IMG/VR virus record: IMGVR_UViG_3300036945_000752
Span: 1-33,571 of that record
Source: a virus
Reading direction: 5' to 3' (one strand)
DNA length: 33,571 bases
Within the stretch, counting starts at the first letter, position 1. Each line of letters opens with the position of its first letter. Shown in pieces: positions 1-32,228 of this stretch. The notes under the pieces were generated by a model. That model did no database searches, was not told the DNA's origin, and worked only from the letters and a program-made list of their open reading frames with translations. Made by a program: the position numbers and the translations under genes.

Positions 1-1425
1 AAACAAATCTTCCCTAAAACTAGTATAAGAAGTAACTCCATTTTGTCCGTTGCGAGTAACTGGCATCCACCACGCTTCCCAGATTGTTTTTAGTTTATCT
101 AATACAACTGTAGCGTTTTTTGTAGTTAAATCATAGGCTTGAAGTGTGATAGTACTATACCAAGATTGACTATCTGTATTGTCAGCAGTTCTAGCAATAT
201 ACAATGTTCTCTTGCCGTTGTTAACAACGTATGTAAAGTCTAAGATAGTGCCTCGACCAGCAACCGCAGGAATAACTTCTTTAGTACTGCCAAACGTACC
301 ATTTGACGCTCCATATAAGATAACCGCATTTGCATTATTTTTGTCGTCACCACCAGCAAGCAAGTCCATAATACCGTCATTGTTAATATCAACTAATTCG
401 ACGCTCCAATAGCCCATCCATGGTACAATGCCTGTTATCCGAGTACTATCTGATACAAATGTACCGTTCTTTTGATTAATCAAGAAGTGTACATTATTGC
501 CATTTGCACCTGGCTGTGATTGATTAAAGATATTTGCTACAACAATGTCAGGGTATCCGTCACCATTAACATCTGCACTGGCGGCACCATGATAAAATCC
601 AACATCTGCTACATCAGTAACTGTAAAGCCACCTGCGCCATTGTTAATTAACAAACTATTCTTTTCGCCTAGAAAGCGACCGTTTACTAAACCATCATAA
701 CCATGACATGCAACGAATACATCAGGATGACCGTCTTTGTTAAAATCATCAACAATAGCTTTGCGAGGATGTAAACAACCTTTATAAGTTAACAGCAAAG
801 TCAGATTACCTGAACTATCTTTACGCCAAAATTGTAAATCACTTTTATATTTTTCTTCTGTTAAAACTTTATCTGCAGGAAACTTACTAGTGTCCATTGT
901 ATAGTTTTGTTTGGCTGTAAAAATATCTATTGTTCCTTTCTTAAAGAAGTCTGCCGCAGTCCAGCCCAGTGGTTGGTCCGGAGAATATTCTCTTAGACTA
1001 TCAGGAAAATTAATTCTAGATAAGCCAACATTTTTCATATTTAAATACGATGACTTTTGTAATGCAATGGCAGGCTTAACAACTGGTTCGCTAGATTTAA
1101 CCGACAATACAGTTTCAACATTGACGACAACATCATAGTAAACATTGCCATAGGCATTCACGTTTGGTATTGTAAGTTGATTCTTATAAGGATCATATGA
1201 GTCCATAGTTGTACTAGGTTTAGGTACATACTTGGAATCTAAGTTAGATCCACCTACAGTTAATATTGGGCCAACTGTAATGACTACGTCACGATAAATC
1301 GTTTCTCCCAACACTACTGCTGGAATAGTCAGTTGATTGTTTACATGATTATATGTGTCTGTGGCGTAAACGTTTGGCGCAATAAAAGCCAATAACGATA
1401 AAAACAATTCATTAATATACTTCAT
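1..1425 (-). CDS. Secreted FG-GAP/VCBS-repeat protein, 3' end outside window
   Basis: An open frame runs from an ATG at 1425 to the left edge without a stop, giving 475 residues. The start is preceded by GGAGG. The N-terminus (MKYINELFLSLLAFIAPNVYA) reads as a Sec signal peptide with an Ala-x-Ala-like end. Two copies of an 'NQLTIP-V..G..Y.DVVV.V...L.V' unit follow in the first ~100 residues. The rest carries calcium-binding FG-GAP/VCBS loops: DFNKDGHPD, DVNGDGYPD and DINNDGIMD, the Dx[DN]xDG pattern of integrin-like beta-propellers. Such proteins are exported surface or adhesion proteins in bacteria. It follows the small lipoprotein gene with one base between stop and start, so it is probably co-transcribed from the promoter near 2830. 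It does not look like a virion component; export to the host surface is inferred. The N-terminal repeat type resembles betaproteobacterial proteins (from memory), which suggests host origin. Confidence 0.8.
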   Translation of the reverse strand, partial: MKYINELFLSLLAFIAPNVYATDTYNHVNNQLTIPAVVLGETIYRDVVITVGPILTVGGSNLDSKYVPKPSTTMDSYDPYKNQLTIPNVNAYGNVYYDVVVNVETVLSVKSSEPVVKPAIALQKSSYLNMKNVGLSRINFPDSLREYSPDQPLGWTAADFFKKGTIDIFTAKQNYTMDTSKFPADKVLTEEKYKSDLQFWRKDSSGNLTLLLTYKGCLHPRKAIVDDFNKDGHPDVFVACHGYDGLVNGRFLGEKNSLLINNGAGGFTVTDVADVGFYHGAASADVNGDGYPDIVVANIFNQSQPGANGNNVHFLINQKNGTFVSDSTRITGIVPWMGYWSVELVDINNDGIMDLLAGGDDKNNANAVILYGASNGTFGSTKEVIPAVAGRGTILDFTYVVNNGKRTLYIARTADNTDSQSWYSTITLQAYDLTTKNATVVLDKLKTIWEAWWMPVTRNGQNGVTSYTSFREDLF

Positions 1426-3329: not shown

Positions 3330-3353
3330 TAAAAAACCCGCCGAAGCGGGTTT
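3329..3353 (-). terminator. Rho-independent terminator with UUCG loop
   Basis: An 8-bp stem (3334-3341 with 3346-3353) closes loop CGAA (UUCG in the minus-strand RNA), followed on the minus strand by TTTTTTATT. It ends the 216-aa structural gene (stop at 3372). The same stem-loop recurs at 4074-4093. Confidence 0.9.
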
Positions 3354-3371: not shown

Positions 3372-4022
3372 TTAATCGTTGTTCCATAATAATTCACCGC
3401 CAACAATACTAGCATTGTAAACAGTAACATTATTTAGACCCCAAGCATTAATGTTAATTTGTAAGTTGGCACCATTGGAATCTTGTCCTGCGGCAACTTG
3501 AACTCTACTAAACCCGGCAGCATTTGTATTAGCAGGTAAATTAGCACTATCTTTCCAGATACCACCATTTACAATTGATACACCTGTTGCTACACCTGCG
3601 TTAGATGCTGTAACACGAACTCTTAGCGGAGTTGCAAAATTTGCGTGACGGAATTCAAATTCGTCGCCTACGTCATTGGCTGTGCCACCATTAAGAATAG
3701 AAATGTTTGTTACTGTTTCTTCACTGACAAATTCAGTAATATCAGTACCCAAACTAGGAATTGTACCATATGTTGCTCCTGGGACTGCGCCTGGAACACT
3801 TGATGCTTTAGCCGCAAATGTAAAGATGTTACCATTTGGTTGGCTTACCATATATAAATCTGTTTTTAGTTGAAGTGCTTGAACTGCCTGTGAATACAAG
3901 CTGTTGCTGTCATCGTAATTTGTTTCGATATCTTCTTCCATATCAACTACGAAGTATGCTAATTCTGGAGTTCCCATAGAAGTAACTGGGAGAATGCGTT
4001 TATAGTTATCTGTAATAGCCAT
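3372..4022 (-). CDS. Probable virion structural protein (216 aa)
   Basis: The ATG at 4022 is preceded by AAAGGA, and a late-promoter-like GATAAATA lies 30-37 bases upstream. The protein has an N-terminal ~75 residues with acidic helix-like sequence (VVDMEEDIETNYDDSNSLYSQAVQALQ) and a Gly/Asn/Val-rich C-terminal part with beta-strand character (ISILNGGTANDVGDEFEF and a related VSIVNGGIWKD segment), typical of phage decoration, fibre or neck-associated proteins. No family is recognised. A T4-type late promoter and terminators on both sides make it a single-gene late unit, which supports a virion role. Confidence 0.7.
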   Translation of the reverse strand: MAITDNYKRILPVTSMGTPELAYFVVDMEEDIETNYDDSNSLYSQAVQALQLKTDLYMVSQPNGNIFTFAAKASSVPGAVPGATYGTIPSLGTDITEFVSEETVTNISILNGGTANDVGDEFEFRHANFATPLRVRVTASNAGVATGVSIVNGGIWKDSANLPANTNAAGFSRVQVAAGQDSNGANLQININAWGLNNVTVYNASIVGGELLWNND

Positions 4023-4073: not shown

Positions 4074-4093
4074 AAACCCGCCGAAGCGGGTTT
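4074..4093 (-). terminator. Hairpin terminator with UUCG loop
   Basis: The stem-loop is identical in sequence to that at 3334-3353 (8-bp stem, CGAA loop on plus). The following T-tract is weak on both strands (GTTTCTCTTT on minus). It lies between the porin stop and the late promoter of the next gene, so it probably ends porin transcripts. Confidence 0.75.
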
Positions 4094-4114: not shown

Positions 4115-5023
4115 TTAAAAGTTCATTTCCATACCAACTGCAACACGACGTAAATCTTTAGTATTTACAACATTGTCTTCTTTGATATAGCGAGCTTGTA
4201 AACTTGTGTGTTTGCTCAAAGCATAGTTAACACCAACGTTAGTTGCTGTAACTAATTCGTTTGTACCGTAACTAGCTAAAACAGTAACTGGAGATTTACC
4301 AACCGGTTGTGCTACGCCTACTGATTTACCAGTAGTTTTTACACCGACAACATTATTAGTAGATCTGATTGCAGATACTGTAGTTCTTGTCGGAGCAACT
4401 GTATACTTGGCAGCTACTAAGTTTGATGTGCTAGTTGTTTGATTGTCATAGGTAGCAAATGTTGCTTGAACACCTGCAAAGCTAACGTCAACACTTGCGG
4501 CTGTAGCACTAGGAGTGCCAACAACTTCGCTTTCGCCTCGTTGATAGCTTACACTCAGACCTTTAACAATGTTAGCAGTAACCATAGTAGCATTACTCAA
4601 ACGTTGACCTTGCCCAGCATTAACAACTGTTGTGCTAGAAAAAGCGGCATTGCCGAAAACATCATAGTTATCTAAACTACGACCAATAGCATGTTTTGCG
4701 CGACCTACATCGACGCTGCCTAGACCAACATGGCTAATACCAACTGTACTTTGTCTGTTACCAAGTTGCGTGGCAGCACCAGTATTTGGTGCATCGGCTA
4801 CGACACTAGTCTCGATAACAGCATTGGCTTTCAAGCCGTTGCCTAGATTTTCAACAGCTTTAAATCCAATACGACTATCACTGTCAGTTAATTGTGTAAC
4901 TGAGTTAGCTGTGCCTAACTTGTATGATTCTTCAAATGCACGTAGTTTACCGTAGGCGGTAACGTCAGCGAAAGAAGTACTAGCGGCTAAAGCTAGAACA
5001 GACATAATTGCAATTTTTTTCAT
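4115..5023 (-). CDS. Outer-membrane porin (general bacterial porin type)
   Basis: This is a complete 302-residue porin. It has an N-terminal signal peptide (MKKIAIMSVLALAASTSFA, cleavage before DVTAYGKL) and a porin-like first strand (VTAYGKLRAFEES). The block 'SRIGFKAVENLGNGLKANAVIETS' to 'GNRQSTVGISHVGLGSVDVGRAKHAIG' closely matches betaproteobacterial porins in pattern (SRFG..G.EDLG.GLKA..Q.E.. then NRQ..VGL...G.V..GR). Alternating strands run to a terminal aromatic residue (VAVGMEMNF), the C-terminal Phe signal for BAM-mediated assembly. It is shorter than typical ~350-residue host porins, so external loops may be trimmed. AAAGGA precedes the ATG, and a sigma70 promoter lies at 5089-5117. 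Nothing is broken. Roles to consider are nutrient uptake during infection, replacement of the phage receptor to block superinfection, or envelope change before lysis; which applies is unknown. Confidence 0.9.
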   Translation of the reverse strand: MKKIAIMSVLALAASTSFADVTAYGKLRAFEESYKLGTANSVTQLTDSDSRIGFKAVENLGNGLKANAVIETSVVADAPNTGAATQLGNRQSTVGISHVGLGSVDVGRAKHAIGRSLDNYDVFGNAAFSSTTVVNAGQGQRLSNATMVTANIVKGLSVSYQRGESEVVGTPSATAASVDVSFAGVQATFATYDNQTTSTSNLVAAKYTVAPTRTTVSAIRSTNNVVGVKTTGKSVGVAQPVGKSPVTVLASYGTNELVTATNVGVNYALSKHTSLQARYIKEDNVVNTKDLRRVAVGMEMNF

Positions 5024-5041
5024 AATAAATTTCCTTTTGTT

Positions 5042-5064
5042 TAGTAAATTAAAATAATTTACTA
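5042..5064. promoter_or_regulatory. Palindrome in the porin leader
   Basis: A perfect 10-bp inverted repeat (5042-5051 and 5055-5064, spacer AAA) lies between the porin promoter and its ribosome-binding site. A second, partly overlapping inverted repeat, TACCTT/AAGGTA, spans 5063-5083. Either could be an operator or an RNA-stability hairpin. Confidence 0.4.
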
Positions 5065-5088
5065 CCTTTATATATTCAAGGTATTCTG

Positions 5089-5117
5089 ATTATACGGAGA
5101 AATAGGGCAGAAATCAA
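5089..5117 (-). promoter_or_regulatory. Sigma70-type promoter of the porin gene
   Basis: Minus-strand TTGATT (5112-5117), 17-base spacer, perfect TATAAT (5089-5094). It gives a leader of about 60 bases. A weaker overlapping alternative, TTGAAT-17-TATTTT, lies nearer the gene. Confidence 0.72.
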
Positions 5118-5176: not shown

Positions 5177-6223
5177 ATGCCAAGACTAAGCCTGTGGAAA
5201 CCCGAAAAAACAAACGACTATCGTTTCATGGATAGACTTATCCGCGAACAATTTATGGTAGGCGGAACTGGCGTGTTAGTACACAAATATTTACAACCAG
5301 CAGATCAAGGTGCCAGCACTGATCCAACTAAGCCTAACTACAAGGCCGATGACATACTCAACGAAACTAAGATACAGGATTTGCTGTTCTTAGAAAATCG
5401 TGATAGGATTTATGATCCTGATATCTACGAACTCAGAGGAGTTTATAACGTAGGCGATCAAGACTTTGACTTAACCCAATTTGGATTATTTCTAAGTGCC
5501 GATACTATCTATATTACATTCCATACCAATGACATGGTTGACCGTATGGGACGTAAACTAATGGCCGGTGATGTCATCGAATTACCACACATCAGAGACG
5601 ACTTATTATTAGACGAAACTAAACCAGCTATTAATAAGTTTTATGTTATTCAAGATGCTAGTCGTGCCGCAGAAGGTTTTAGTCAAACTTGGTATCCACA
5701 TATTTGGCGCATCAAAGCTAGCCCAATGACTGATGCTCAAGAGTACCGAGATATCCTACAACAAACTGCTGATAACGGAGTCGATACATTAAAAGATGCT
5801 CTTAGCACTTATCAGAAAGAATTAGAAATTTCTAATGCTATTATTAAACGCGGTGAACAACTTGCTCCTACTATCTTAGATGACGGCAGTAATATATTGC
5901 AGGATACAACAAAGCCCTATCAAGCAGATGCTAATCCTGTATATGATCATGGCGAACAAGTCGAGTCCGGATTAAGTTTCCCTTTGACTCCGCATCAAGG
6001 AGATTTCTTCTTACGCACAGATTATCAGCCTCCGGCTTTATTTGCTTATCGAGGAACAAGATGGCAACGTATGACAACTGCTAACGGTCCGATTGACTTA
6101 AGAGATAAAGTTCTCAATGCCGCAGGATTCATTAATAATGATGCTACTACTGTTGTCGGTAATAAGGAATTCCCAGAACGTCAAGCATTGAGTCAAGTAG
6201 TCCTACCTAAATCAGATTTTTAA
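5177..6223 (+). CDS. 14: gp14-like neck protein
   Basis: The 348-aa product matches the pattern of T4-like neck protein gp14 as I know it from cyanophages. The N-terminal helix (DRLIREQFMVGGTGVLVHKYLQP) corresponds to 'LI.EQ...G...YY.PR', a middle part holds the ENRDRIYD element, and the strand region 'DLTQFGLFLSADTIYITF' is followed by the 'AGDVIELPH' and 'NKFYVIQDA' turns. In T4, gp14 with gp13 forms the neck collar that seals filled heads and connects them to the tail. The next gene starts two bases after its stop and looks like gp15, the sheath-end protein, the right neighbour for a neck/tail-completion module. The C-terminal ~100 residues (after IIKRGEQLAP) exceed T4 gp14 (256 aa) and are unassigned. 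The ribosome-binding site is weak. Confidence 0.72.
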   Translation: MPRLSLWKPEKTNDYRFMDRLIREQFMVGGTGVLVHKYLQPADQGASTDPTKPNYKADDILNETKIQDLLFLENRDRIYDPDIYELRGVYNVGDQDFDLTQFGLFLSADTIYITFHTNDMVDRMGRKLMAGDVIELPHIRDDLLLDETKPAINKFYVIQDASRAAEGFSQTWYPHIWRIKASPMTDAQEYRDILQQTADNGVDTLKDALSTYQKELEISNAIIKRGEQLAPTILDDGSNILQDTTKPYQADANPVYDHGEQVESGLSFPLTPHQGDFFLRTDYQPPALFAYRGTRWQRMTTANGPIDLRDKVLNAAGFINNDATTVVGNKEFPERQALSQVVLPKSDF

Positions 6224-9571: not shown

Positions 9572-9599
9572 AAATACCTTGAAGTTGTTCAAGGTATTT
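9572..9599 (-). terminator. Terminator hairpin that sequesters the next ribosome-binding site
   Basis: A perfect 12-bp stem (9572-9583 with 9588-9599, loop GTTG on plus) is followed on the minus strand by a T-tract running into ATG 9567. It would end transcripts of the 64-aa gene. In any read-through RNA the AAGG needed by the next gene is paired. Confidence 0.85.
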
Positions 9600-9602
9600 A
9601 TA
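9595..9602 (-). promoter_or_regulatory. T4-type late promoter inside the hairpin (perfect TATAAATA)
   Basis: Minus-strand TATAAATA overlaps the 5' arm of the 9572-9599 hairpin. The predicted start near 9589 removes almost all of the 5' arm, freeing the AAGG before ATG 9567. T4 genes such as e, soc and 49 are known to use this arrangement. Confidence 0.75.
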
Positions 9603-9898: not shown

Positions 9899-12800
9899 TT
9901 ATAGTTCGCCTGAATTGCCGATTTGTGCTTCAAGAGTCTTAACTTTAGCACTTAGTTCCTTAACCGCTTCGATTAACAATGCTGTTAGCTTGTCATAACG
10001 AACTGTCTTGTAACCAGCAAAAGCAGAATCACATACCAATTCAGGAGCAACTGCTTCAATTTCTTGAGCAATAACACCCATCTGGTGACGATTATCGATA
10101 CCTAATGCTAGAGCAGCTTCGTTTGGATCGAATGTAACACCGTTGATTGCTTCTACTTTTTCCAAAGCGTCTGCAATAGGAACAATGTTTGTCTTCAAAC
10201 GTAAGTCAGAGAAGTAAGCTGTAATTTCACCAGTAGCAGTAATAGCACCAGATACAGTTAAAGCACCTGTACTCAATGCCGCTGTAGTTGTTGCGCCACG
10301 AGCAGTAACGTTTGCCAATGTACTTGTTTCTGTGTAGCCTGTAATAAAGCCAGCACCGTTAGTCAATTGGTTAGTGTTAGTAGGAATAGTAATTACACCA
10401 GTTGAACTGTTGTAAGCACCAGAACCAGCTGTGAAGCTATGTGCGGAACGAGCTAATGCATCAGTGTACTGAGTAATTGTGTTAGTTAAAGTAATACTAC
10501 CACCTAAACTTACAGCACCACCGCCACTTAAACCTGTACCAGCTGTAACTGTTACTGCGCTGTTAGCTAAACTTGCATTTGGAACGCTAGCCAAGCTAAT
10601 TAGCATACTGTCGCCGTGTGTAGCATCATCGCTAGCCACTGCAACTGTTACACCATTAGAACCACGGAACTTGAATGTGTCGTTGTTGCTGTCGGCTGCG
10701 GCAGTTGTTGTACCATCTGTAAAATTCTTAAAGATGTTTTGGCTGCTACCTAAATCAGTGTTAGTAACTGTAGCTGTACTACCTTCGCCTTGTGTATGGC
10801 TTACGCTGATACCTGTACCAGCTGTAACGTTTACCATGTAGTTACCAGTTGTGTCAGTACCTAAAGCAACGTTGTTTGCTGATACTGTAGCAGATAATGT
10901 TACGTCTGCACTACCATCAATGCTAACGCTACCAGACAAGTCACCACCTAAAGTGATTGTACGAGCTGTTGCCCATTTTGTTGCTGTTGCGGCATTACCG
11001 GTTGTTGAACCAGAACTACCAGTTACGTTACCAGTTACGTTACCAGTCAATGCGGCTGTAATTGTACCAGCTGTAAAGTTACCGCTTGCATCACGTGCAA
11101 CGATAGCACTTGCTGTATTAGCACTTGCGGCTGTTGTAGCAGAATTGCTTACTTTACCAGCTGTACTGATTGTTGCTAATGCGCTATCAGGAACGCTAAC
11201 TAAACGTGCGTTTGGTAATGTACCAGAACTAATGTTAGCGGCATTTGTTGTATCAGTTGTTGCTGATGTAGCTAAACCAGTGATCTTGCTAGTAGCAATT
11301 GAACCCGCCAACATTGCATTTGTAACTGTACCAGTATCACCAGTTGTGATAATTGTACCATTTACGTCCGGTGCTGTCAATGTACGAGTTGTACCTGTTG
11401 AAATACTGCTTGCTTGGAATTGTAACTTCTTAGTAGCATCAGTTTCGTCAATGATAAATGTTGTACTGTCGCTTAATGACTTGTTTGTCAATGTTTGAGC
11501 AGTTGTTTTATCGATTGATGATGCTGTATCTAAACTAATTGTAACTGCGGCACCTTCACCAGAACCAGAAACAGTAATACCTGTACCAGCTGTAACGCTA
11601 GCAACATAGTTACCAGTTGTATCTGTACCTAGTGCAACTGCATCGCTTGTTACTGTAGCATTCAATGTAACGTTTGCGCTACCGTCAATGCTTACACTAC
11701 CAGATAAATCACCACCTAAAGTGATTGTACGAGCTGTTGTCCACTTACCAGCTGTTGTAGCTGTATCAGCATTACCTGTTAAAGCACCAACGAATGCTGT
11801 AGATGTAACGCTTGTTAAACCAGCCAATGTAGTAGAACTTGCACCTAAGCTAATATCAGTTGTACCTACTGTTACTTTGCTATTTGACAAACTTGCGTTT
11901 GGAATAGCACTTGTTGTAATGGCACCAGTTGTGCTGTTATAAGAAATACCTGTACCAGCACTTACACTAGCGCGAGCACGGGCTGTTGTAAAGTATTGGT
12001 TAGTAGTACCTTCACTAATTGCGTCGCTGTCTAAAGTACGTGTACCACCTAATGCAACTGATGTGCCGTTGATTGTAACACTACTGTTAGCCAATGAACT
12101 ATTTGGAATACTACCTAAGCTGAATACACCAGTTGAGCTGTTATAGCTTACACCTGTTGCGCTTGTTGAACTTAATGCACTACGAGCACGAGCCGCTGTG
12201 TGATATAAGTTTGTTGAACCTTCTGTTAATACGTCTGTGCTTGTAGCAATTGGATGATAAACAGCACCGTCGTTTGTAAATGTCCAAGTGTCAGAACCTT
12301 CGTTCCAACGAATTTGTGTGTTTGCATCATCACCACGTTCAACTTCGATGCCAGCATTTTGTGTTGGTGTACCTGTTGCGTCACTGTTCAATGTAATAAT
12401 GTTATCAGCTAAACTGATTGTGTTAGAGTTAACAACTGTTTGTGTACCGCTAACTGTAAAGTTACCAGCAACTGTAACACCTGTACCATCAACTGTCAAT
12501 GCTGTTGAACCATCAACTGTAACTGTTACTGTACCAGAACCGCTGTCAACAACGGCAATGTTAGTGTTACCTTGAGCAATACTTGATGTGCTGATTGAAC
12601 TAACTGAATCATCAACATATTTCTTTGTTGCCGCATCTGTGTTAGCACTTGGTGCGCCAAGACCGATAACTTTGTTACCGTTCATTTCAATGTTGTCACC
12701 AAAGTTAACTTTGATACCTGCGCTGTCAGTAATGTTCTTACCGGCTGCGATCTGCAATGTACCGTCAACGTTAACGTTCGTTGTGCTAGAACCTAATTGT

Positions 12801-13381
12801 AAAATGCCTGCGCCAACTGCGTTGATTCGGATATTTTGGTCTACGTCAGCAGTAAATGTAATTGTACCAGAATCGTCTTCTAGAACCTTACTACCGTTAA
12901 CATACAAAGAACCTGGACCAACGTAAACGTCTTTCCATTGCTTAGTTGGACTACCTAAGTCATATGTAATGTCTGCACTAGGAATAATGCTACCAGAGAT
13001 ACTAGGAATACCACCTGTTAATGTTAAGTTAACAAATGTTGGACTACCTGCTGTAGTCAATGTCTGTGTTGTGCTGATTGCACCAGTACTGCTGTTATAG
13101 CTGATACCAGAACCTGCACTGATAGACGCACGAGCTCTTGCTTGTGTAAAATATAAATTACCGTTTTCAGCAACATCAGTTGTATCTAATGTTACTGCAC
13201 CTGTTTCACCGTTGACGCTTGTTACGCCACCGATTTGGACCACGCTAGGTGTTCCGTCATCTTTTTTAATATAAATCAAGCCGTCATACGTATTGATTGC
13301 TATTTCGCCTAGTGACAATTGACTGGTTGTTGGCACTTTACCAGGTGTTGCACTACGCTTTAAAACTATTGTATTTGCCAT
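9899..13381 (-). CDS. Tail fibre with C-terminal S74 intramolecular chaperone
   Basis: The 1160-aa fibre has an N-terminal virion-attachment type (MANTIVLKRSATPGKVP, LGEIAINTYDGLIYIKKDDG). The long beta-structured shaft has three 'EG.TN.YFT.ARARAS(I/V)S' units and two copies of a 'KW.TARTITLGGDLSGSVSIDGSA' block. The C-terminus is an S74 chaperone: SDLRLK begins at Ser1058 with Lys1063 five residues on (the Ser/Lys autocleavage pair of the family), then GVIAQEIEAVAPELV and a trimeric helix ending LEAQIGNSGEL. The family trimerises the fibre and then cuts itself off; the mature fibre should lack the last ~103 residues. It probably contacts the host receptor. It has its own late-type promoter and a terminal hairpin. 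The repeat blocks are also found in the 1860-aa fibre. Confidence 0.92.
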   Translation of the reverse strand: MANTIVLKRSATPGKVPTTSQLSLGEIAINTYDGLIYIKKDDGTPSVVQIGGVTSVNGETGAVTLDTTDVAENGNLYFTQARARASISAGSGISYNSSTGAISTTQTLTTAGSPTFVNLTLTGGIPSISGSIIPSADITYDLGSPTKQWKDVYVGPGSLYVNGSKVLEDDSGTITFTADVDQNIRINAVGAGILQLGSSTTNVNVDGTLQIAAGKNITDSAGIKVNFGDNIEMNGNKVIGLGAPSANTDAATKKYVDDSVSSISTSSIAQGNTNIAVVDSGSGTVTVTVDGSTALTVDGTGVTVAGNFTVSGTQTVVNSNTISLADNIITLNSDATGTPTQNAGIEVERGDDANTQIRWNEGSDTWTFTNDGAVYHPIATSTDVLTEGSTNLYHTAARARSALSSTSATGVSYNSSTGVFSLGSIPNSSLANSSVTINGTSVALGGTRTLDSDAISEGTTNQYFTTARARASVSAGTGISYNSTTGAITTSAIPNASLSNSKVTVGTTDISLGASSTTLAGLTSVTSTAFVGALTGNADTATTAGKWTTARTITLGGDLSGSVSIDGSANVTLNATVTSDAVALGTDTTGNYVASVTAGTGITVSGSGEGAAVTISLDTASSIDKTTAQTLTNKSLSDSTTFIIDETDATKKLQFQASSISTGTTRTLTAPDVNGTIITTGDTGTVTNAMLAGSIATSKITGLATSATTDTTNAANISSGTLPNARLVSVPDSALATISTAGKVSNSATTAASANTASAIVARDASGNFTAGTITAALTGNVTGNVTGSSGSTTGNAATATKWATARTITLGGDLSGSVSIDGSADVTLSATVSANNVALGTDTTGNYMVNVTAGTGISVSHTQGEGSTATVTNTDLGSSQNIFKNFTDGTTTAAADSNNDTFKFRGSNGVTVAVASDDATHGDSMLISLASVPNASLANSAVTVTAGTGLSGGGAVSLGGSITLTNTITQYTDALARSAHSFTAGSGAYNSSTGVITIPTNTNQLTNGAGFITGYTETSTLANVTARGATTTAALSTGALTVSGAITATGEITAYFSDLRLKTNIVPIADALEKVEAINGVTFDPNEAALALGIDNRHQMGVIAQEIEAVAPELVCDSAFAGYKTVRYDKLTALLIEAVKELSAKVKTLEAQIGNSGEL

Positions 13382-14024: not shown

Positions 14025-14032
14025 TATTTATA
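14025..14032 (-). promoter_or_regulatory. T4-type late promoter (perfect TATAAATA)
   Basis: Minus-strand TATAAATA followed by AT. The predicted start is near 14019, giving a 32-base leader to ATG 13986. It lies directly after the terminator at 14048-14073. Confidence 0.72.
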
Positions 14033-14097: not shown

Positions 14098-17000
14098 TTA
14101 GTATGTACCACCGTCGATGTTACTTGATTCGTTTAGAACACCACCAGCAGTCAATGTGCTAGTAGAACTTACACGAACGAAGATGTAATCGTTGGCTTCC
14201 GGGGCTGTGTCAAACACAATACTTGATATTTCATTAGTCGTAGACAATGTATAAGAGTATGTAGGTGCTTGAATCAAACCGTTGATATACACTTGAGTGT
14301 TATCAATACTTGTAACGTTAACACCAGTACTGAAACTAGTTGCTGAACCGTCACCAGTAAAGTTCAATGTAGTAGCTGTTACAGCGATGTTCTGTGGAAC
14401 AAACTCGCCTAAAGCACTAGACCAAACTAGTGTATAACCGTCTTGTAAAGCTTCTGTCTTATTGACATCACTTAAATCACGGATGCTTGCAGCCGCAATA
14501 CGATCATCTGCACGAGTGTCAGTGTAGTAAAGATTTACTAGACCTTCATCGATTGCATCAGTCGTTGGCGTTACGAATGTCAATGTACCTGTAGCATAAC
14601 TTAAGATGTTTGCATCATCAGTTACTAATGTCAATGCGTTTTGAGCACGAGCATTTGTAAAGTACAAGTTTGTTGAACCTTCACTGACATCATCTGTGTC
14701 TAGTACAACATCATGAGTCTGACCGTTAACGCTCCAAACAGCCGCTTGTGTGCTGATTGTACCGCTAGTTGCATCATAATCAATGTTTGCACCGTTGTTT
14801 ACACTTGCGCGAGCGCGAGCTGTTGTAAAGTACAATCTGTTCTGACCTTCAGCAATTTCATCTGTATCAACAGTTGCTAATGTGAAGCTAAATGTACCAG
14901 TTGTATTATCATAGCTTAATGCATCTGTGTTATCAGTTGTTAAGCTGATAGCTTGACGAGCACGGCTATTCAAGAAGTACAAGTTTGTACCTTCTGTTAC
15001 ATCACTTGTGCTTGGAGCAGAGATATTGATAATACCAGTAGCATCATCATAGCTTAGGTTACTCCAACCAGTTGCGCTGATACTTTGACGAGCGCGAGCT
15101 TGTGTAAAGTACATTGTACCGGATGTTACTGTTGCATTTGGATCTTCTGTAACTTCGCTGGTATCTAAACCAGTTAAGCTGAATGTAAATTCACCAGTTG
15201 TGCTGTTGTAATCTAATACTGTGCTGTCGCTTGTTGTCAAGCTGATTGCACTACGAGCACGACCTTCTGTGAAGTACATTGTACCACTTGTAGTAGTTGC
15301 ACTTGGATCTTCAGAAACACTTTCTGTACCAAAGCTACCACTAGCACCCAAAGCAACATTTGTACCGTTAATTGTAACGCTGTTGTTTGTCAAGCTAGTA
15401 TTTGGAATACTTGCTAAAGCAAATACACCAGTTGCGCTAGTATATGTAATACCAGTGTTGCTTGTAGCACTGAAGTGAGCACGAGTATCGGCTGCGCTTG
15501 GACCAGTATAAGAAATAACGCCAGTTGAATCATCATAAGAGATTGTACCGTCGCCGCTTACTTTAGTTGCGCTAATCGCCAAACGATAATCAGCATTGTC
15601 AGGACCTGTGTAGCTGAATACACCAGTTGGTTCATCATAGCTGAAGTTGCCATCGCCACTTACTTTAGTAGCACTTACTTGAGCACGAACATCGGCTGAA
15701 GTAACTTTGGCATAAGTGAATACACCTGTTGAACTACTATAGCTTAGACCACCAAAACCTGTTCCGCTTGTGCTAGCACCAAAGTGAGCACGAGTTTCGC
15801 TGGCGCTTGGGCCTGTGTATGTGAATACACCAGTTGCGCTATCGTAGCTGAATGAACCATCACCGCCTGCATCAGTAGCACTTAAGGCTGCTTGAGCACG
15901 AGCGTTTGTAAAGTACATTGTACCGCTACTTGTTGTTGCTGCCGGATCTTCAGTTACTTCGCTAGTATCTAAACCAGATAAGCTGAATGTAAATTCACCA
16001 GTTGAACTGTTATAATCTAAAACAGAACTATCACTTGTTGTCAAGCTGATTGCACTACGAGCACGACTGTCTAAGTAATACTTGTTGCCTTCTTCAGTAA
16101 CGCTGTCAGTACCAAAACTACCAGTACCACCTAAACTTACTGTTGTTCCGTTAATAGTTACATCGCTGTTTGTCAAGCTACTATTTGGAATAGCACTTAG
16201 AGCAATAACACCAGTACTTGCTGTATATGTTACACCAGTTGCGCTTGTAGCACTTACGCTGTTACGAGCACGAGTTGTTGTAAAGTATAAGTTTGTACCT
16301 TCAGCTAAACCAGTAGTTGAGTGATTGCTGATATCGCTAACTTGACCAGTTACATTACCAGTTAAGTTACCAGTTACGTCGCCGGTTACATTACCAGTTA
16401 AGTTACCAGTTACATTACCAGTTAAGTTACCACTGAAACCAGTGTTAGCTGTAATTGTTGTACCAGTTACTGCGGCAGGAGTCACACCACCAATAGCTGT
16501 ACCATCGATGTTACCACCATTGATATCAACTGTAGCAAATGTACTTGTACCTGTGCTTGTTACATCACCTGTTACATTACCTGTAACGTTACCAGTTAAG
16601 TCACCTGTTACATCACCTGTTACATCACCAGTTAAGTCACCAGTAAATGTAGGAGCTGTTAGGTCAGCTGTTAGTGTTAAACCACCAGTAATACTAACGT
16701 CTTTGTTTAAGTTCCAGCTATCTGTACCACTTGCATAAGTGATTGTAGCATTAGAACCGTCAACTGTTAAACCAGCACCATTGGAGGCAGCGGCATTTGC
16801 GGCACCTTTAGCCAATGTCAAGTTCAAGTCAGCAATTTCAACTGTGTTTGATTGAATAGATGTCAATGTACCCAATACTGTTAAGTCACCGCTGACTGTT
16901 AAGTCATTGAATGTAACGTCGCTAGTTGTACTAACATCTTGACCGATTGCAATTTCACCAGTAGAACTTGTGTAAGTTACACCAGTACCACCTGACAATG

Positions 17001-19680
17001 TTGCGCGAGCGCGACTTTGTGTGAAGTACATTGTACCAGAAGTTACTGTTGCACTTGGATCTTCAGCTAAATCAGCAGTATCTTTGGCAGCAAATGCGCT
17101 GTCGAAACGTGCTTGAGTGTAGTATAGGTTAGAACCTTCTGCTAAATCATCAGTGTCTTTGGCAGCCAATGCTGTATCAAAACGAGCTTGTGTATAATAC
17201 AAGTTAGTTTCTTCAGTAACGCTGTCGGTACCAAAACTTGTTGTACCACCTAAACTTACAGTTGCACCGTTAACAGTTACACTGCTGTTTGCCAAGCTAG
17301 AGTTTGGAATACTTGCTAAAGCAATAACACCAGTACCTGCTGTATATGTTACACCAGTGTTTGATGTAGCACTTAGGTGAGCACGAACTTCACTGGCACT
17401 TGGACCTGTGTAAGTAAATGCACCAGTTGCACTATCATAACTGAATGAACCGTCACCACCTGCGTCAACTGCACTAACGTCAGCGCGAGTACGTGCTGTT
17501 GTGTAGTATAAGTTGTTTGCGCCTTCTGCAACGTCGTCAGTTGTCTGATTAGACAAGTTAAATGTAAACGCACCAGTTGTGCTGTTATAATCTAAAACAC
17601 TTGCCTTGTTAGTTGTCAAGCTGATTGCACTACGAGCACGACCATCTTCAAAATACAAGTTTTGTGTACCTTCGCCGATGTCGTCAGTGTCTAAAGTCTG
17701 ACTACCGCCCAAGGAGATATCATAACCGTTGACTGTAACTTTGCTGTTTGTCAAGCTAGCATTTGGAATACCGCTTAAAGCGATTATACCAGTTGCGCTG
17801 TCATATGTTACACCTGTATTAGTAGTAGCACTTAGGTGAGCACGAACTTCACTAGCACTTGGACCAGTATATTCAAATACACCAGTTGAGCTATTATAGC
17901 TTAAACTACCGTCACCGCCTAGATCACTAACACTTAGGTGAGCACGAGTTTCGCTGGCACTTGGACCTGTGTAAGTGAATACACCAGTTGAGCTATTGTA
18001 ATCAAAACTACCATCACCGCCCGCATCAACTGCGCTTACAGCACCTCGATAGTTAGTGTTTGTAGGACCTGTGTATGTGAATACACCAGTTGAGCTACTA
18101 TACTCTAAATTACCGTGACCGCTAGCGTGGTTAGCACTAACTGCTTGACGATATTCTGTGCTTGTTGGACCAACATAATCAAATACACCAGTAGTGTTAT
18201 CATATGTTAAATCACCGTCGCCGGCACTATGAATTGCGCTAACGCTGTTACGAGCGCGAGTGTCAGTATAATATAAGTTTGTACCTTCTGTTACATCGCT
18301 TGTGCTTGGAGCACTAATAGAAATAACACCAGTACCGTTGTTGTAGCTTAAATTGCTCCAACCGCTTGTACTAATAGATTGACGAGCACGACTGTCTAAG
18401 AAGTACAAGTTTTGTGTACCTTCAGCAACGTCGTCTGTAGTCTGGTTTCCTAGTGCGAATGTAAACAAACCAGTTGTATTGTCATAGCTTAAAACGCTTG
18501 GCTTATCGCTAGTTAAACTTACAGCATTACGAACACGAGTGTCTGTATAATACTTGTTAGTAGAACCTTCATTTACACCATCAGTTGTTGGCGTTGAATA
18601 GCTAAAGTTACCAGTAGCTGAATTGTAACTAATGTCACCACTAGCACTAACTGCGCCATGAACGCGAGCATCAGTATAATATAAATTTACACTACCTTCA
18701 TCAACACTATCTGTACTTGGTGTTACGAATGTAAAACGTCCTGTACCAGTGTTATAACTCAAGATGTTAGTGTCGTCAGTTGTTAAACTAACTGCACCAG
18801 CGGCACGAGCGTTTGTAAAGTACAAGTTTGTACTACCTTCACCGATGTCATCTGTATCTAATACTACGTCATGAGTTTGAGTATTGACACTCCAAACAGC
18901 AGCCTGTGTACTGAAAATACCTGTCGATGAGTCATAATCAATGTTTGCACCACTACTTACTGAATTACGAGCACGACTTGTTAAGAAGTATTGGTTAGTT
19001 TGACCTTCAACAATCTTGTCAGTGTCGGGTGTTGTGAATGTAAATTCACCAGTTTGACTACTATAAGAAAGAATCTGACCGTCATCACTGTTTAAACTAA
19101 CGCTGTTACGAGCACGACCTTGTGTAAAATACAAGTTTGTTGTACCTTCTAATACACCATCACTTGTTGGATGACGATATCTAAATTGACCGCTTGTACT
19201 ATCATAGGTTAAAACAGTAGTATTGTCACTGTCTAAACTAATCGTGCTTTTTACACGAGCTGCTGTATAATACAAGTTAGTTTGACCTTCAGCAACATCA
19301 TCTGTACTGTAGATCATCTGACTGTCAACTAAATCATCAACATACAATTTAGTTACAGCATGTAAGTTTAATGTTGGAGCACCTGACAAAGTCAACGGAC
19401 CTGTCATTGCTTCACTACCATCTTTTGGTAGTTTTGTAGCGATACTATTTGCAACGGAAACGGAGAATGCTTCGTCGTTGTTAATGGCCGCTGCTAATTC
19501 AGCTAATGTATCTAGCAATGCTGGACTAGCATCAACTAAGTCTGCAATCGCTGTTCTAACATAAGACGTACTAGCAAGTTGGTTAGTATTAACCGTTTGC
19601 TGAGCCGTTTCCGCCGTTGGTTGACCACGTAGGTCAACGCTGTCCATAATGGAACTTGACCTGGCTTTAATTAATGGCAT
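14098..19680 (-). CDS. Giant repeat-containing tail fibre (1860 aa)
   Basis: Residues 1-120 form an attachment domain (MPLIKARSSSIMDSVDLRGQ..., DASPALLDTLAELAAAINND, then a 'GPLTLSGAPT...AVTKLYVDD' module). The shaft contains 22 copies that I count of a ~45-residue unit built on 'EG..NLYYT.ARAR..(V/I)S' followed by a 'G...Y.S.TG.F.Y' strand pair; four copies carry an insert ending SGTMYFT. Two stretches are pure GNVT/GDVT tetrapeptide repeats. The C-terminal module (NFTGDG...YINGLIQAPTYSY...IVFDTAPEANDYIFVRVSS) also occurs in the 380-aa neighbour. The end is NIDGGTY; no S74 chaperone is present, so folding may need help in trans. AAGGA precedes ATG 19680. It is most likely a long tail fibre in which repeat number sets length. 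Confidence 0.9.
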   Translation of the reverse strand: MPLIKARSSSIMDSVDLRGQPTAETAQQTVNTNQLASTSYVRTAIADLVDASPALLDTLAELAAAINNDEAFSVSVANSIATKLPKDGSEAMTGPLTLSGAPTLNLHAVTKLYVDDLVDSQMIYSTDDVAEGQTNLYYTAARVKSTISLDSDNTTVLTYDSTSGQFRYRHPTSDGVLEGTTNLYFTQGRARNSVSLNSDDGQILSYSSQTGEFTFTTPDTDKIVEGQTNQYFLTSRARNSVSSGANIDYDSSTGIFSTQAAVWSVNTQTHDVVLDTDDIGEGSTNLYFTNARAAGAVSLTTDDTNILSYNTGTGRFTFVTPSTDSVDEGSVNLYYTDARVHGAVSASGDISYNSATGNFSYSTPTTDGVNEGSTNKYYTDTRVRNAVSLTSDKPSVLSYDNTTGLFTFALGNQTTDDVAEGTQNLYFLDSRARQSISTSGWSNLSYNNGTGVISISAPSTSDVTEGTNLYYTDTRARNSVSAIHSAGDGDLTYDNTTGVFDYVGPTSTEYRQAVSANHASGHGNLEYSSSTGVFTYTGPTNTNYRGAVSAVDAGGDGSFDYNSSTGVFTYTGPSASETRAHLSVSDLGGDGSLSYNSSTGVFEYTGPSASEVRAHLSATTNTGVTYDSATGIIALSGIPNASLTNSKVTVNGYDISLGGSQTLDTDDIGEGTQNLYFEDGRARSAISLTTNKASVLDYNSTTGAFTFNLSNQTTDDVAEGANNLYYTTARTRADVSAVDAGGDGSFSYDSATGAFTYTGPSASEVRAHLSATSNTGVTYTAGTGVIALASIPNSSLANSSVTVNGATVSLGGTTSFGTDSVTEETNLYYTQARFDTALAAKDTDDLAEGSNLYYTQARFDSAFAAKDTADLAEDPSATVTSGTMYFTQSRARATLSGGTGVTYTSSTGEIAIGQDVSTTSDVTFNDLTVSGDLTVLGTLTSIQSNTVEIADLNLTLAKGAANAAASNGAGLTVDGSNATITYASGTDSWNLNKDVSITGGLTLTADLTAPTFTGDLTGDVTGDVTGDLTGNVTGNVTGDVTSTGTSTFATVDINGGNIDGTAIGGVTPAAVTGTTITANTGFSGNLTGNVTGNLTGNVTGDVTGNLTGNVTGQVSDISNHSTTGLAEGTNLYFTTTRARNSVSATSATGVTYTASTGVIALSAIPNSSLTNSDVTINGTTVSLGGTGSFGTDSVTEEGNKYYLDSRARSAISLTTSDSSVLDYNSSTGEFTFSLSGLDTSEVTEDPAATTSSGTMYFTNARAQAALSATDAGGDGSFSYDSATGVFTYTGPSASETRAHFGASTSGTGFGGLSYSSSTGVFTYAKVTSADVRAQVSATKVSGDGNFSYDEPTGVFSYTGPDNADYRLAISATKVSGDGTISYDDSTGVISYTGPSAADTRAHFSATSNTGITYTSATGVFALASIPNTSLTNNSVTINGTNVALGASGSFGTESVSEDPSATTTSGTMYFTEGRARSAISLTTSDSTVLDYNSTTGEFTFSLTGLDTSEVTEDPNATVTSGTMYFTQARARQSISATGWSNLSYDDATGIINISAPSTSDVTEGTNLYFLNSRARQAISLTTDNTDALSYDNTTGTFSFTLATVDTDEIAEGQNRLYFTTARARASVNNGANIDYDATSGTISTQAAVWSVNGQTHDVVLDTDDVSEGSTNLYFTNARAQNALTLVTDDANILSYATGTLTFVTPTTDAIDEGLVNLYYTDTRADDRIAAASIRDLSDVNKTEALQDGYTLVWSSALGEFVPQNIAVTATTLNFTGDGSATSFSTGVNVTSIDNTQVYINGLIQAPTYSYTLSTTNEISSIVFDTAPEANDYIFVRVSSTSTLTAGGVLNESSNIDGGTY
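16345..16432 (-). repeat. 12-bp tandem repeats coding G-N/D-V/L-T
   Basis: About seven 12-bp units close to ACCAGTTACATT in tandem, in frame, encode the tetrapeptide ladder LTGNVTGNLTGNVTGDVTG in the 1860-aa fibre. Confidence 0.85.
16558..16645 (-). repeat. Second 12-bp tandem repeat block in the fibre
   Basis: About seven 12-bp units (close to ACCTGTTACATC) in frame encode DLTGDVTGDVTGDLTGNVTG. It is related to the block at 16345-16432 and would allow slippage without loss of frame. Confidence 0.82.
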
Positions 19681-30150: not shown

Positions 30151-30158
30151 TATAAATA
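30151..30158 (+). promoter_or_regulatory. T4-type late promoter of the gp26-like gene (perfect TATAAATA)
   Basis: Plus-strand TATAAATA followed by AA. The predicted start is near 30164, giving a 34-base leader with GGAG before ATG 30198. Confidence 0.72.
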
Positions 30159-31425: not shown

Positions 31426-31660
31426 CGAAAAGTAAAAATTGGAAAATCCTGTCGGAGGCCCATTATCGTAATCTACTACTACAACTATTACTAGTAAAGG
31501 CGGTTACGCTGTACCTTTTTATGTAGCTCTTCTTATAACGCAAAATCAAATAGCCAATAGATAAACACATTGATTCTTGTAGGTTGCAATGACTCAGCAG
31601 TGCCTACTCTTTTTGGTCGTACAATACATTTGCCAACACATTTCATACCCTGTGTTGCGT

Positions 31661-31671
31661 CCTGTTAAGGA
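31661..31671 (+). repeat. Direct repeat CCTGTTAAGGA, copy 2
   Basis: A second copy of the 11-mer, here as TCCT GTTA AGGA, preceded like the first by CG plus one base. Both copies are in the gene-free stretch. Confidence 0.55.
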
Positions 31672-31799
31672 TAGTGGCAATCATGTCTCTGCTACTGCTC
31701 AGATGTTCCTTCCCTGCGACACGGAGTCCAGTTATTGGGTACCTAGTTTAACTTGCCGGTACAGGCATTATCAGTAGTGTCTTTGTGGCTAGTGCCGAT

Positions 31800-32228
31800 T
31801 TAAATTCTGTTTATGATATGTGATCCGTGGACGCGAACGGATATTTGGCCATTGTAGTAATCTGTTGTTTCTAAAACTTTTCTATCGAATTGTTCTTTTG
31901 CTTCTAAGTATGAAGTATGTGCCTTGGATGTGCAGTAATGTAAAATCTCACGAGTGAAATTTTCTTTGCCTAGTGTGGTAACGTCTTTAGATAATTCATC
32001 ACTACTCCCGTAGTAATCACGCCAGTCTGAATCGACTTTTGTACGAATTTTCTTTTTCTTTTTGATGCCATTTTTTTGCTTAACAACTTTATAAGATGTC
32101 TTTGCAAACTTTGCCAATTTTTTGCCTATGTATTTGCGGCCTGTGACTGAGTTAGTAATGAGATAAACAAAACCAACACAGTCCTCAGGAAGTTCTTCTA
32201 TTAAATTACCTTGGTAAAGCCATGTCAT
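31800..32228 (-). CDS. GIY-YIG-type endonuclease-like protein
   Basis: The 142-aa product has the GIY-YIG core: GFVYLITN (Tyr22), RKYIGKK (Tyr33, Gly35), then after a Lys-rich insert and DWRDYYGSS the helix FTREIL (Arg93) and the catalytic Glu in YLEAKEQF (Glu109). All four residues expected for metal-dependent strand cleavage are there. Similar stand-alone proteins occur in aquatic T4-like phages, where they may be homing (Seg-like) or repair nucleases. There is no separate DNA-binding domain beyond the basic insert (residues ~46-65). It lies six bases after the histone-like gene, downstream of gp46. There is no clear Shine-Dalgarno; translational coupling is likely. Confidence 0.78.
   Translation of the reverse strand: MTWLYQGNLIEELPEDCVGFVYLITNSVTGRKYIGKKLAKFAKTSYKVVKQKNGIKKKKKIRTKVDSDWRDYYGSSDELSKDVTTLGKENFTREILHYCTSKAHTSYLEAKEQFDRKVLETTDYYNGQISVRVHGSHIINRI

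Follow-up and report, generated by a model that had tools for sequence, protein, structure and literature searches.

We propose that a T4-superfamily phage carries a gene for a short 16-strand porin of the PorB/Omp32 type, a member of a phage gene family, and that the protein would act as an anion-preferring uptake pore in the infected cell; the probability we attach to this reading is about 0.5. The gene lies in what we call the window, the whole stretch of viral DNA analysed here (33,571 nucleotides, IMG/VR record IMGVR_UViG_3300036945_000752), and its features are collected in Table 1. The family and fold of the protein, its residence in phages, the fixed slot with its swapping, the leader stem-loop and the clustering with other genes were all computed here; membrane insertion, trimerisation, anion preference and a benefit to the phage are predicted.

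Table 1. Features of the porin cassette and its two flanking genes in the window
Feature	Position	Strand	Basis
Divergent virion structural gene (phrog_11591, "neck gene"), conserved neighbour of the slot	5177..6223	plus	phrog match
TTGATT, -35-like	5112..5117	minus	sequence
TATAAT, -10-like, 17 bases from the -35	5089..5094	minus	sequence
TATATAAAG, instance of TATATAA(A/T)G, possible true -10	5066..5074	minus	invariance among slot upstreams
Leader stem-loop, 9 pairs, covariation among relatives	5042..5064	minus	pairing and covariation tests
AGGAAA-type Shine-Dalgarno	5030..5036	minus	sequence
Porin coding sequence, 302 aa, 16-strand beta-barrel	4115..5023	minus	sequence, Pfam, PDB match, model
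Signal peptide, residues 1-19, predicted cleavage between SFA and D	4967..5023	minus	sequence and family pattern
Constriction loop L3, residues 109-144, with invariant R141 (aligned with Omp32 R133)	4592..4699	minus	model and alignment
UUCG hairpin CCCGC-TTCG-GCGGG, intrinsic terminator	4074..4093	minus	sequence
216-aa phage gene, weak match to a head-decoration family	3372..4022	minus	far side of slot

The reading frame is intact, runs from an ATG start through 302 codons to a final phenylalanine, and contains the signal peptide (MKKIAIMSVLALAASTSFA, then D) and the porin strand pattern that had been noticed in it beforehand. An alanine followed by Q or D stands at the predicted cleavage place across the porin family, and the mature window porin has 283 aa. 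The match to Porin_1 (PF00267) scores 39.7 bits against a curated Pfam cut-off of 23.7 (E 5.1e-10), and a sequence search of the PDB returned PorB (4aui, 6.4e-11). While the similarity of the single sequence to known porins is mostly confined to the first third of the protein, a profile of 47 phage porins matched PorB over the full length (2.7e-22) and also Omp32 (2.8e-13). Neisserial PorB (PF00267, NF040479) and the phage porins share an N-terminal motif, an SKRTS motif and the C-terminal phenylalanine, the last present in 47 of 47 phage porins. Against the PorB equivalog NF040479 the window porin reached 47.4 bits, below the NCBIfam threshold of 480, and judged by its sequence it is a relative of PorB, not PorB. 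A PADLOC match to Cas4b (E 3e-4) was taken as a chance match on a barrel segment.

Structure prediction, which had been proposed as a check on the barrel, gave a pLDDT of only 28 when run on the single sequence; the AlphaFold model built on an alignment of 18 phage sequences (pLDDT 76.7, pTM 0.71) has 16 strands and a helix-bearing L3 after strand 5. DSSP divides this model into 17 strand segments, of which 39-46 and 51-61 are read by us as one interrupted strand; L3 then takes the external position that it has in known porins. The best structural matches in the PDB (Foldseek) were Omp32 (E 2.6e-14, TM 0.75) and PorB. Apart from L3, the modelled external loops measure 2-10 residues, which together with the length of the mature protein bears out the expectation of trimmed surface loops. 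The phage porin is predicted to insert into the membrane, where it probably trimerises.

Omp32, the best structural match, is an anion-selective porin of Delftia (Comamonas) acidovorans (PDB 2fgq, 1e54) with the same 16-strand fold, for which a malate complex has been solved. It is a host gene without phage linkage, about 18% identical to the phage porin and about 50 residues longer, with longer loops. Its residues R75, R133 and E58 align with phage positions that are invariant or nearly so, namely R90 (45 of 45 phage porins), R141 (45 of 45) and E71 (E or D in all 45), and the position of Omp32 R38 corresponds to R51 of the window porin, an arginine found only there and in a subset of the family. 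In Omp32 these residues form the constriction, a role reportedly treated in Zeth 2000 and Zachariae 2006. On sequence alignment, a basic constriction as in Omp32 (R38, R75, R133) is thus present, and we infer from the aligned residues that the phage porin may prefer anions. The net charge of the mature phage porins ranges from 0 to +8; charges typical of the family are partly absent in the window porin (N67, V133, Q138). Variability, expressed as entropy, is 1.77 in the external loops vs. 1.34 in the strands.

That the carrier is a T4-superfamily phage is supported by window genes of T4-type families, including a gp15-type tail sheath stabiliser (8.6e-27), portal, major head protein and protease; the major head protein is 64-68% identical to those of GAP32, PA5oct and similar jumbo phages. 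With these virion genes, the Porin_1 match and the 16-strand model, the original prediction of a complete outer-membrane porin in a T4-like phage is upheld. The same window contains two long minus-strand genes (14098-19680 and 9899-13381) for proteins of 1860 and 1160 aa with repeats such as NLYFTxARA and GNVTGNVTG, judged from these sequences to be probably tail-fibre-like structural proteins.

Scans of viral and bacterial contigs with patterns from the lone window protein found no relative, because the window porin is a divergent member; the adjacent structural gene gave the first access to the family, and a porin alignment the second. The neck gene, used as query on viral contigs, retrieved 78 loci, and a porin occupied exactly the same slot in 18 of the 59 contigs whose upstream DNA exceeded 1.2 kb; on the far side of the slot the 216-aa gene is kept in L074 (a 233-kb contig), L030 and L050. 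The scan with the porin alignment returned 54 loci, several of them repeat views of the same contigs, and an alignment was made of 47 porins. Beyond the slot, relatives reside in 30-odd further contigs, T4-superfamily genomes of 232-525 kb among them; six records exceed 200 kb, each genome has one porin, and the porin-bearing records of 349, 349, 525, 233 and 232 kb also encode relatives of the major head protein. The window porin, which at first had no known counterpart in a T4-like phage, is not alone: T4-superfamily and giant phages contain about 50 relatives.

The bacterial comparison consisted of plasmid-borne porins and two short-pattern scans covering 84,980 species of bacteria and archaea; the scans, with a sensitivity limited by those patterns, found no relative, and tblastn against 50,697 phage records likewise gave none. 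Among plasmids, 35 records matched the phage porin, all from Burkholderiales, with about 23-30% identity among the matches listed. In a maximum-likelihood tree of 46 phage porins and seven plasmid-borne bacterial porins (the bacterial row L160 was left out), a long branch supported at 100/99 separated 44 of the 46 phage sequences from the sampled Burkholderiales porins. Two 339-aa porins, L037 and L043, grouped with the bacterial sequences and are, on this tree, a second acquisition in the same slot. Bacterial sampling is thin, and the label "phage-specific" for the family is provisional.

The slot porins fall in several separate places in the tree, forcing at least six changes. While L005 and L006 are 99% identical in the neck protein and 78% in the porin, L020 and L006 share 86% of the neck protein and 92% of the porin; between the window and its slot relatives the values are 83-93% for the neck protein vs. 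32-39% for the porin, and the window porin is the most divergent member. As read from these sequences, phages swap porin alleles while the slot stays fixed. Close groups show a dN well below dS, the mark of purifying selection, indicating that the porin gene is kept functional. A further minus-strand gene in the window (1-1425, cut by its left end) encodes an exported protein with a signal peptide and FG-GAP-like repeats, and in related phages its place is taken by secreted FG-GAP or lipoprotein-like proteins of several kinds; by sequence it is a second surface-directed variable gene besides the porin.

The signals around the gene indicate that the porin forms its own promoter-to-terminator cassette, as supported by sequence. 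The TTGATT-17-TATAAT site of promoter-like, host type that had been pointed out is present exactly, and so is the UUCG hairpin behind the gene; the same hairpin closes the next gene (about 3332-3352) and recurs downstream of nearly all slot relatives. Taken alone, the TTGATT/TATAAT site is weak (reached by 6.9% of shuffles); among the upstreams of 47 porins it is found with at most two mismatches in 21 vs. 3.3 expected. Of the 12 slot upstreams, three lack this pair and some have a degraded form of it, whereas all 12 share an unchanged TATATAA(A/T)G just ahead of the leader stem-loop. The best-conserved element is therefore not the one initially named as promoter, and early transcription by the host polymerase is at most conjectural.

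Between TATATAA(A/T)G and the Shine-Dalgarno sits the leader stem-loop. Across nine leaders 92.6% of stem cells pair, the pairing or covariation score was reached by 0 of 500 shuffles, and sliding the partner abolished the signal. Many giant-phage porins have stem-loops of different sequence at the same leader place, and 38% of porin leaders vs. 12% of controls fold better than 95% of their own shuffles. The ompA mRNA is stabilised by a stem-loop near its 5' end, and by analogy the phage stem-loop may stabilise the porin mRNA. The T4 late sequence TATAAATA precedes the start by 53 bases in three giant-phage porins; as a general rule before porins it stays at chance level (3 exact vs. 1.2 expected), and the window porin is without it, while three other window genes have it. 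In the window it occurs only three times, at 30151-30158 (+), 9595-9602 (-) and 14025-14032 (-), each copy 35-47 bases upstream of a gene.

Many larger relatives have uptake genes close to the porin. When 142 proteins encoded around 27 non-slot porins were scanned with Pfam, TctC was the commonest family (11), accompanied by DctP (4), PBP_like_2 (3) and sodium:dicarboxylate symporter (2). A search for DctP in 40 contigs placed all five genes within about 4 kb of the porin; the symporter lies 1.4 kb from it in a 349-kb record and 4.4 kb in the 525-kb record, and a PstS-like gene lies 1.8 kb away in another 349-kb record. Within records above 85 kb, 12 of 21 uptake genes were within 6 kb of the porin (1.3 expected). 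Counted by genome, six of eight had an uptake gene near the porin vs. 1.2 expected, with a P of 8e-5 that is optimistic given that the tested genomes share some ancestry. No binding-protein gene stands beside the porin in the window itself or beside the slot porins; G036, the closest large relative, has one TctC, 61 kb from the porin, and G037 has none. Of the properties expected of an auxiliary uptake gene, the porin shows purifying selection, and linkage to uptake genes is seen in the relatives only. Such frequent proximity to genes for capture of organic acids and phosphate suggests that the infected cell is helped to keep feeding. In several giant phages a protein of about 380 aa adjoins TctC and the porin (L106:8770-9912, L115:8459-9601, L087:7651-8811), that of L106 being without a Pfam match, and in one phage contig a tryptophan halogenase-like gene lies directly behind the porin (L092:10967-12568).

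Superinfection block, altered uptake and mimicry of a host porin had all been offered as functions, and the neighbouring genes favour uptake. Together with the Omp32-aligned constriction and the net charge, they favour an anion-preferring uptake pore over the replacement of receptors, in which the phage porin would displace host receptor porins and deny other phages by its trimmed loops. Loop variability and allele swapping also suit an arms race over receptors, and count against the uptake reading; very short modelled external loops, a slot refilled with different porins at least six times, and near-identical backbones bearing different porins (as in L005 and L006) all speak for such a replacement. 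However, it leaves the solute-binding proteins and dicarboxylate symporters beside the porin unexplained, an added pore does not itself remove existing host porins, and exclusion would need early porin expression; we consider it unlikely, though a serious competitor. Upkeep of the outer membrane is a less probable explanation again: with host genes shut off, the porin would merely replace lost host porin and serve no special substrate. The stand-alone cassette and the stabilising-looking leader stem-loop do resemble highly expressed outer-membrane-protein mRNAs, and a PorB-type protein is a general pore, but neither the clustering with carboxylate and phosphate uptake genes nor the conserved basic constriction agrees with this.

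A late role, in the virion or at lysis, is conceivable, e.g. if the protein were shed with outer-membrane vesicles and so spared progeny from adsorbing to debris. The slot does lie inside the structural gene region and three giant-phage porins carry TATAAATA, but the chance-level frequency of this sequence over the whole porin set and its absence before the window porin, despite its presence before three other window genes, make us regard a late role as very doubtful. Least credible, to the point that we give it next to no weight, is accidental carriage of a host gene or an assembly chimera. Porins are usually host genes and the record is a metagenomic contig, but the recurrence of the same slot in 18 related contigs refutes the chimera that had been considered at about 4.1-5.1 kb, and the presence of porins in six records over 200 kb, the 100/99 separation from sampled bacterial porins, purifying selection and the conserved promoter, leader and terminator argue against accident.

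Phage-borne outer-membrane porins are known from temperate coliphages, namely lc of PA-2 and nmpC of the qsr' (DLP12) prophage, and to our knowledge porins had been found on those phages only. They are of the enterobacterial OmpC/OmpF type, close to host genes and carried by integrating lambdoid phages, whereas those described here form a family of their own, carried by T4-superfamily phages and with uptake genes nearby. An Lc/NmpC-type identity was rejected, since the nearest matches are porins of Neisseria, Delftia and Burkholderiales and the gene has T4-type virion genes for neighbours. Databases already contain porin folds from uncultured phage contigs: BFVD entries A0A6J5L4P1 and A0A6J5LP82, from uncultured Caudovirales phage, have the automatic annotation "OmpC Outer membrane protein (Porin)" and are 16-19% identical to the window porin in structural alignment. 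In the open-access literature we found no study of these two entries and no description of porins in giant or freshwater phages. Phage-borne porins as such are thus known; the T4-superfamily giant-phage family, its linkage to uptake genes and its exchange at a fixed slot are new.

Among the 47 phage porins, 35 end in K/R-Phe, and this ending, together with the exclusively Burkholderiales plasmid matches, points to a likely beta-proteobacterial outer membrane. Rfam RF01718, the Polynucleobacter-1 RNA, named after a bacterial genus, is found at 31626-31767 on the minus strand (77 bits, cut-off 37), next to a GIY-YIG homing-endonuclease-like gene (31800-32228, minus). It is also present in six related phage records, always 8.4-11.9 kb from the major head protein gene, a recurrence that makes it look like a phage RNA. 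The Burkholderiales matches, K/R-Phe endings and this RNA would be consistent with a freshwater Burkholderiales host, and the label "freshwater-type" rests on the same hints. Comparison of the transport genes near the porins made the host range no narrower.

In the proposed mechanism, the phage porin would be exported during infection and then inserted into the host outer membrane, where a general, anion-preferring pore may admit C4-dicarboxylates, tricarboxylates and phosphate during replication of a very large genome. In many larger relatives it would be coupled to periplasmic TctC, DctP or PstS-like proteins or to an inner-membrane dicarboxylate symporter. With its short external loops, the porin may also be ill suited as a receptor for other phages. 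More tentatively, at somewhat less than even odds, a giant T4-superfamily lineage has its own nutrient route through the envelope, with porin alleles exchanged at a fixed slot: the anion porin would serve the outer membrane and TctC, DctP or PstS the periplasm, while two of the largest phages add a dicarboxylate symporter for the inner membrane. By such a route infected cells would go on importing organic acids and phosphate. Marine cyanophages carry pstS as an auxiliary nutrient-uptake gene. It likewise raises nutrient uptake by the infected cell, and PstS-like genes lie near several phage porins here; cyanophage pstS acts in the periplasm only, whereas the porin family adds an outer-membrane step.

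Cumulatively, a porin family apart from the sampled bacterial porins is distributed among T4-superfamily phages as large as 525 kb. Its exchangeable slot is a natural experiment that could show what stays constrained in a porin serving a virus. If the uptake reading is true, these phages would govern, already at the outer membrane, what enters the infected cell, which known auxiliary genes such as pstS do not cover, and may affect the turnover of organic acids and phosphate.
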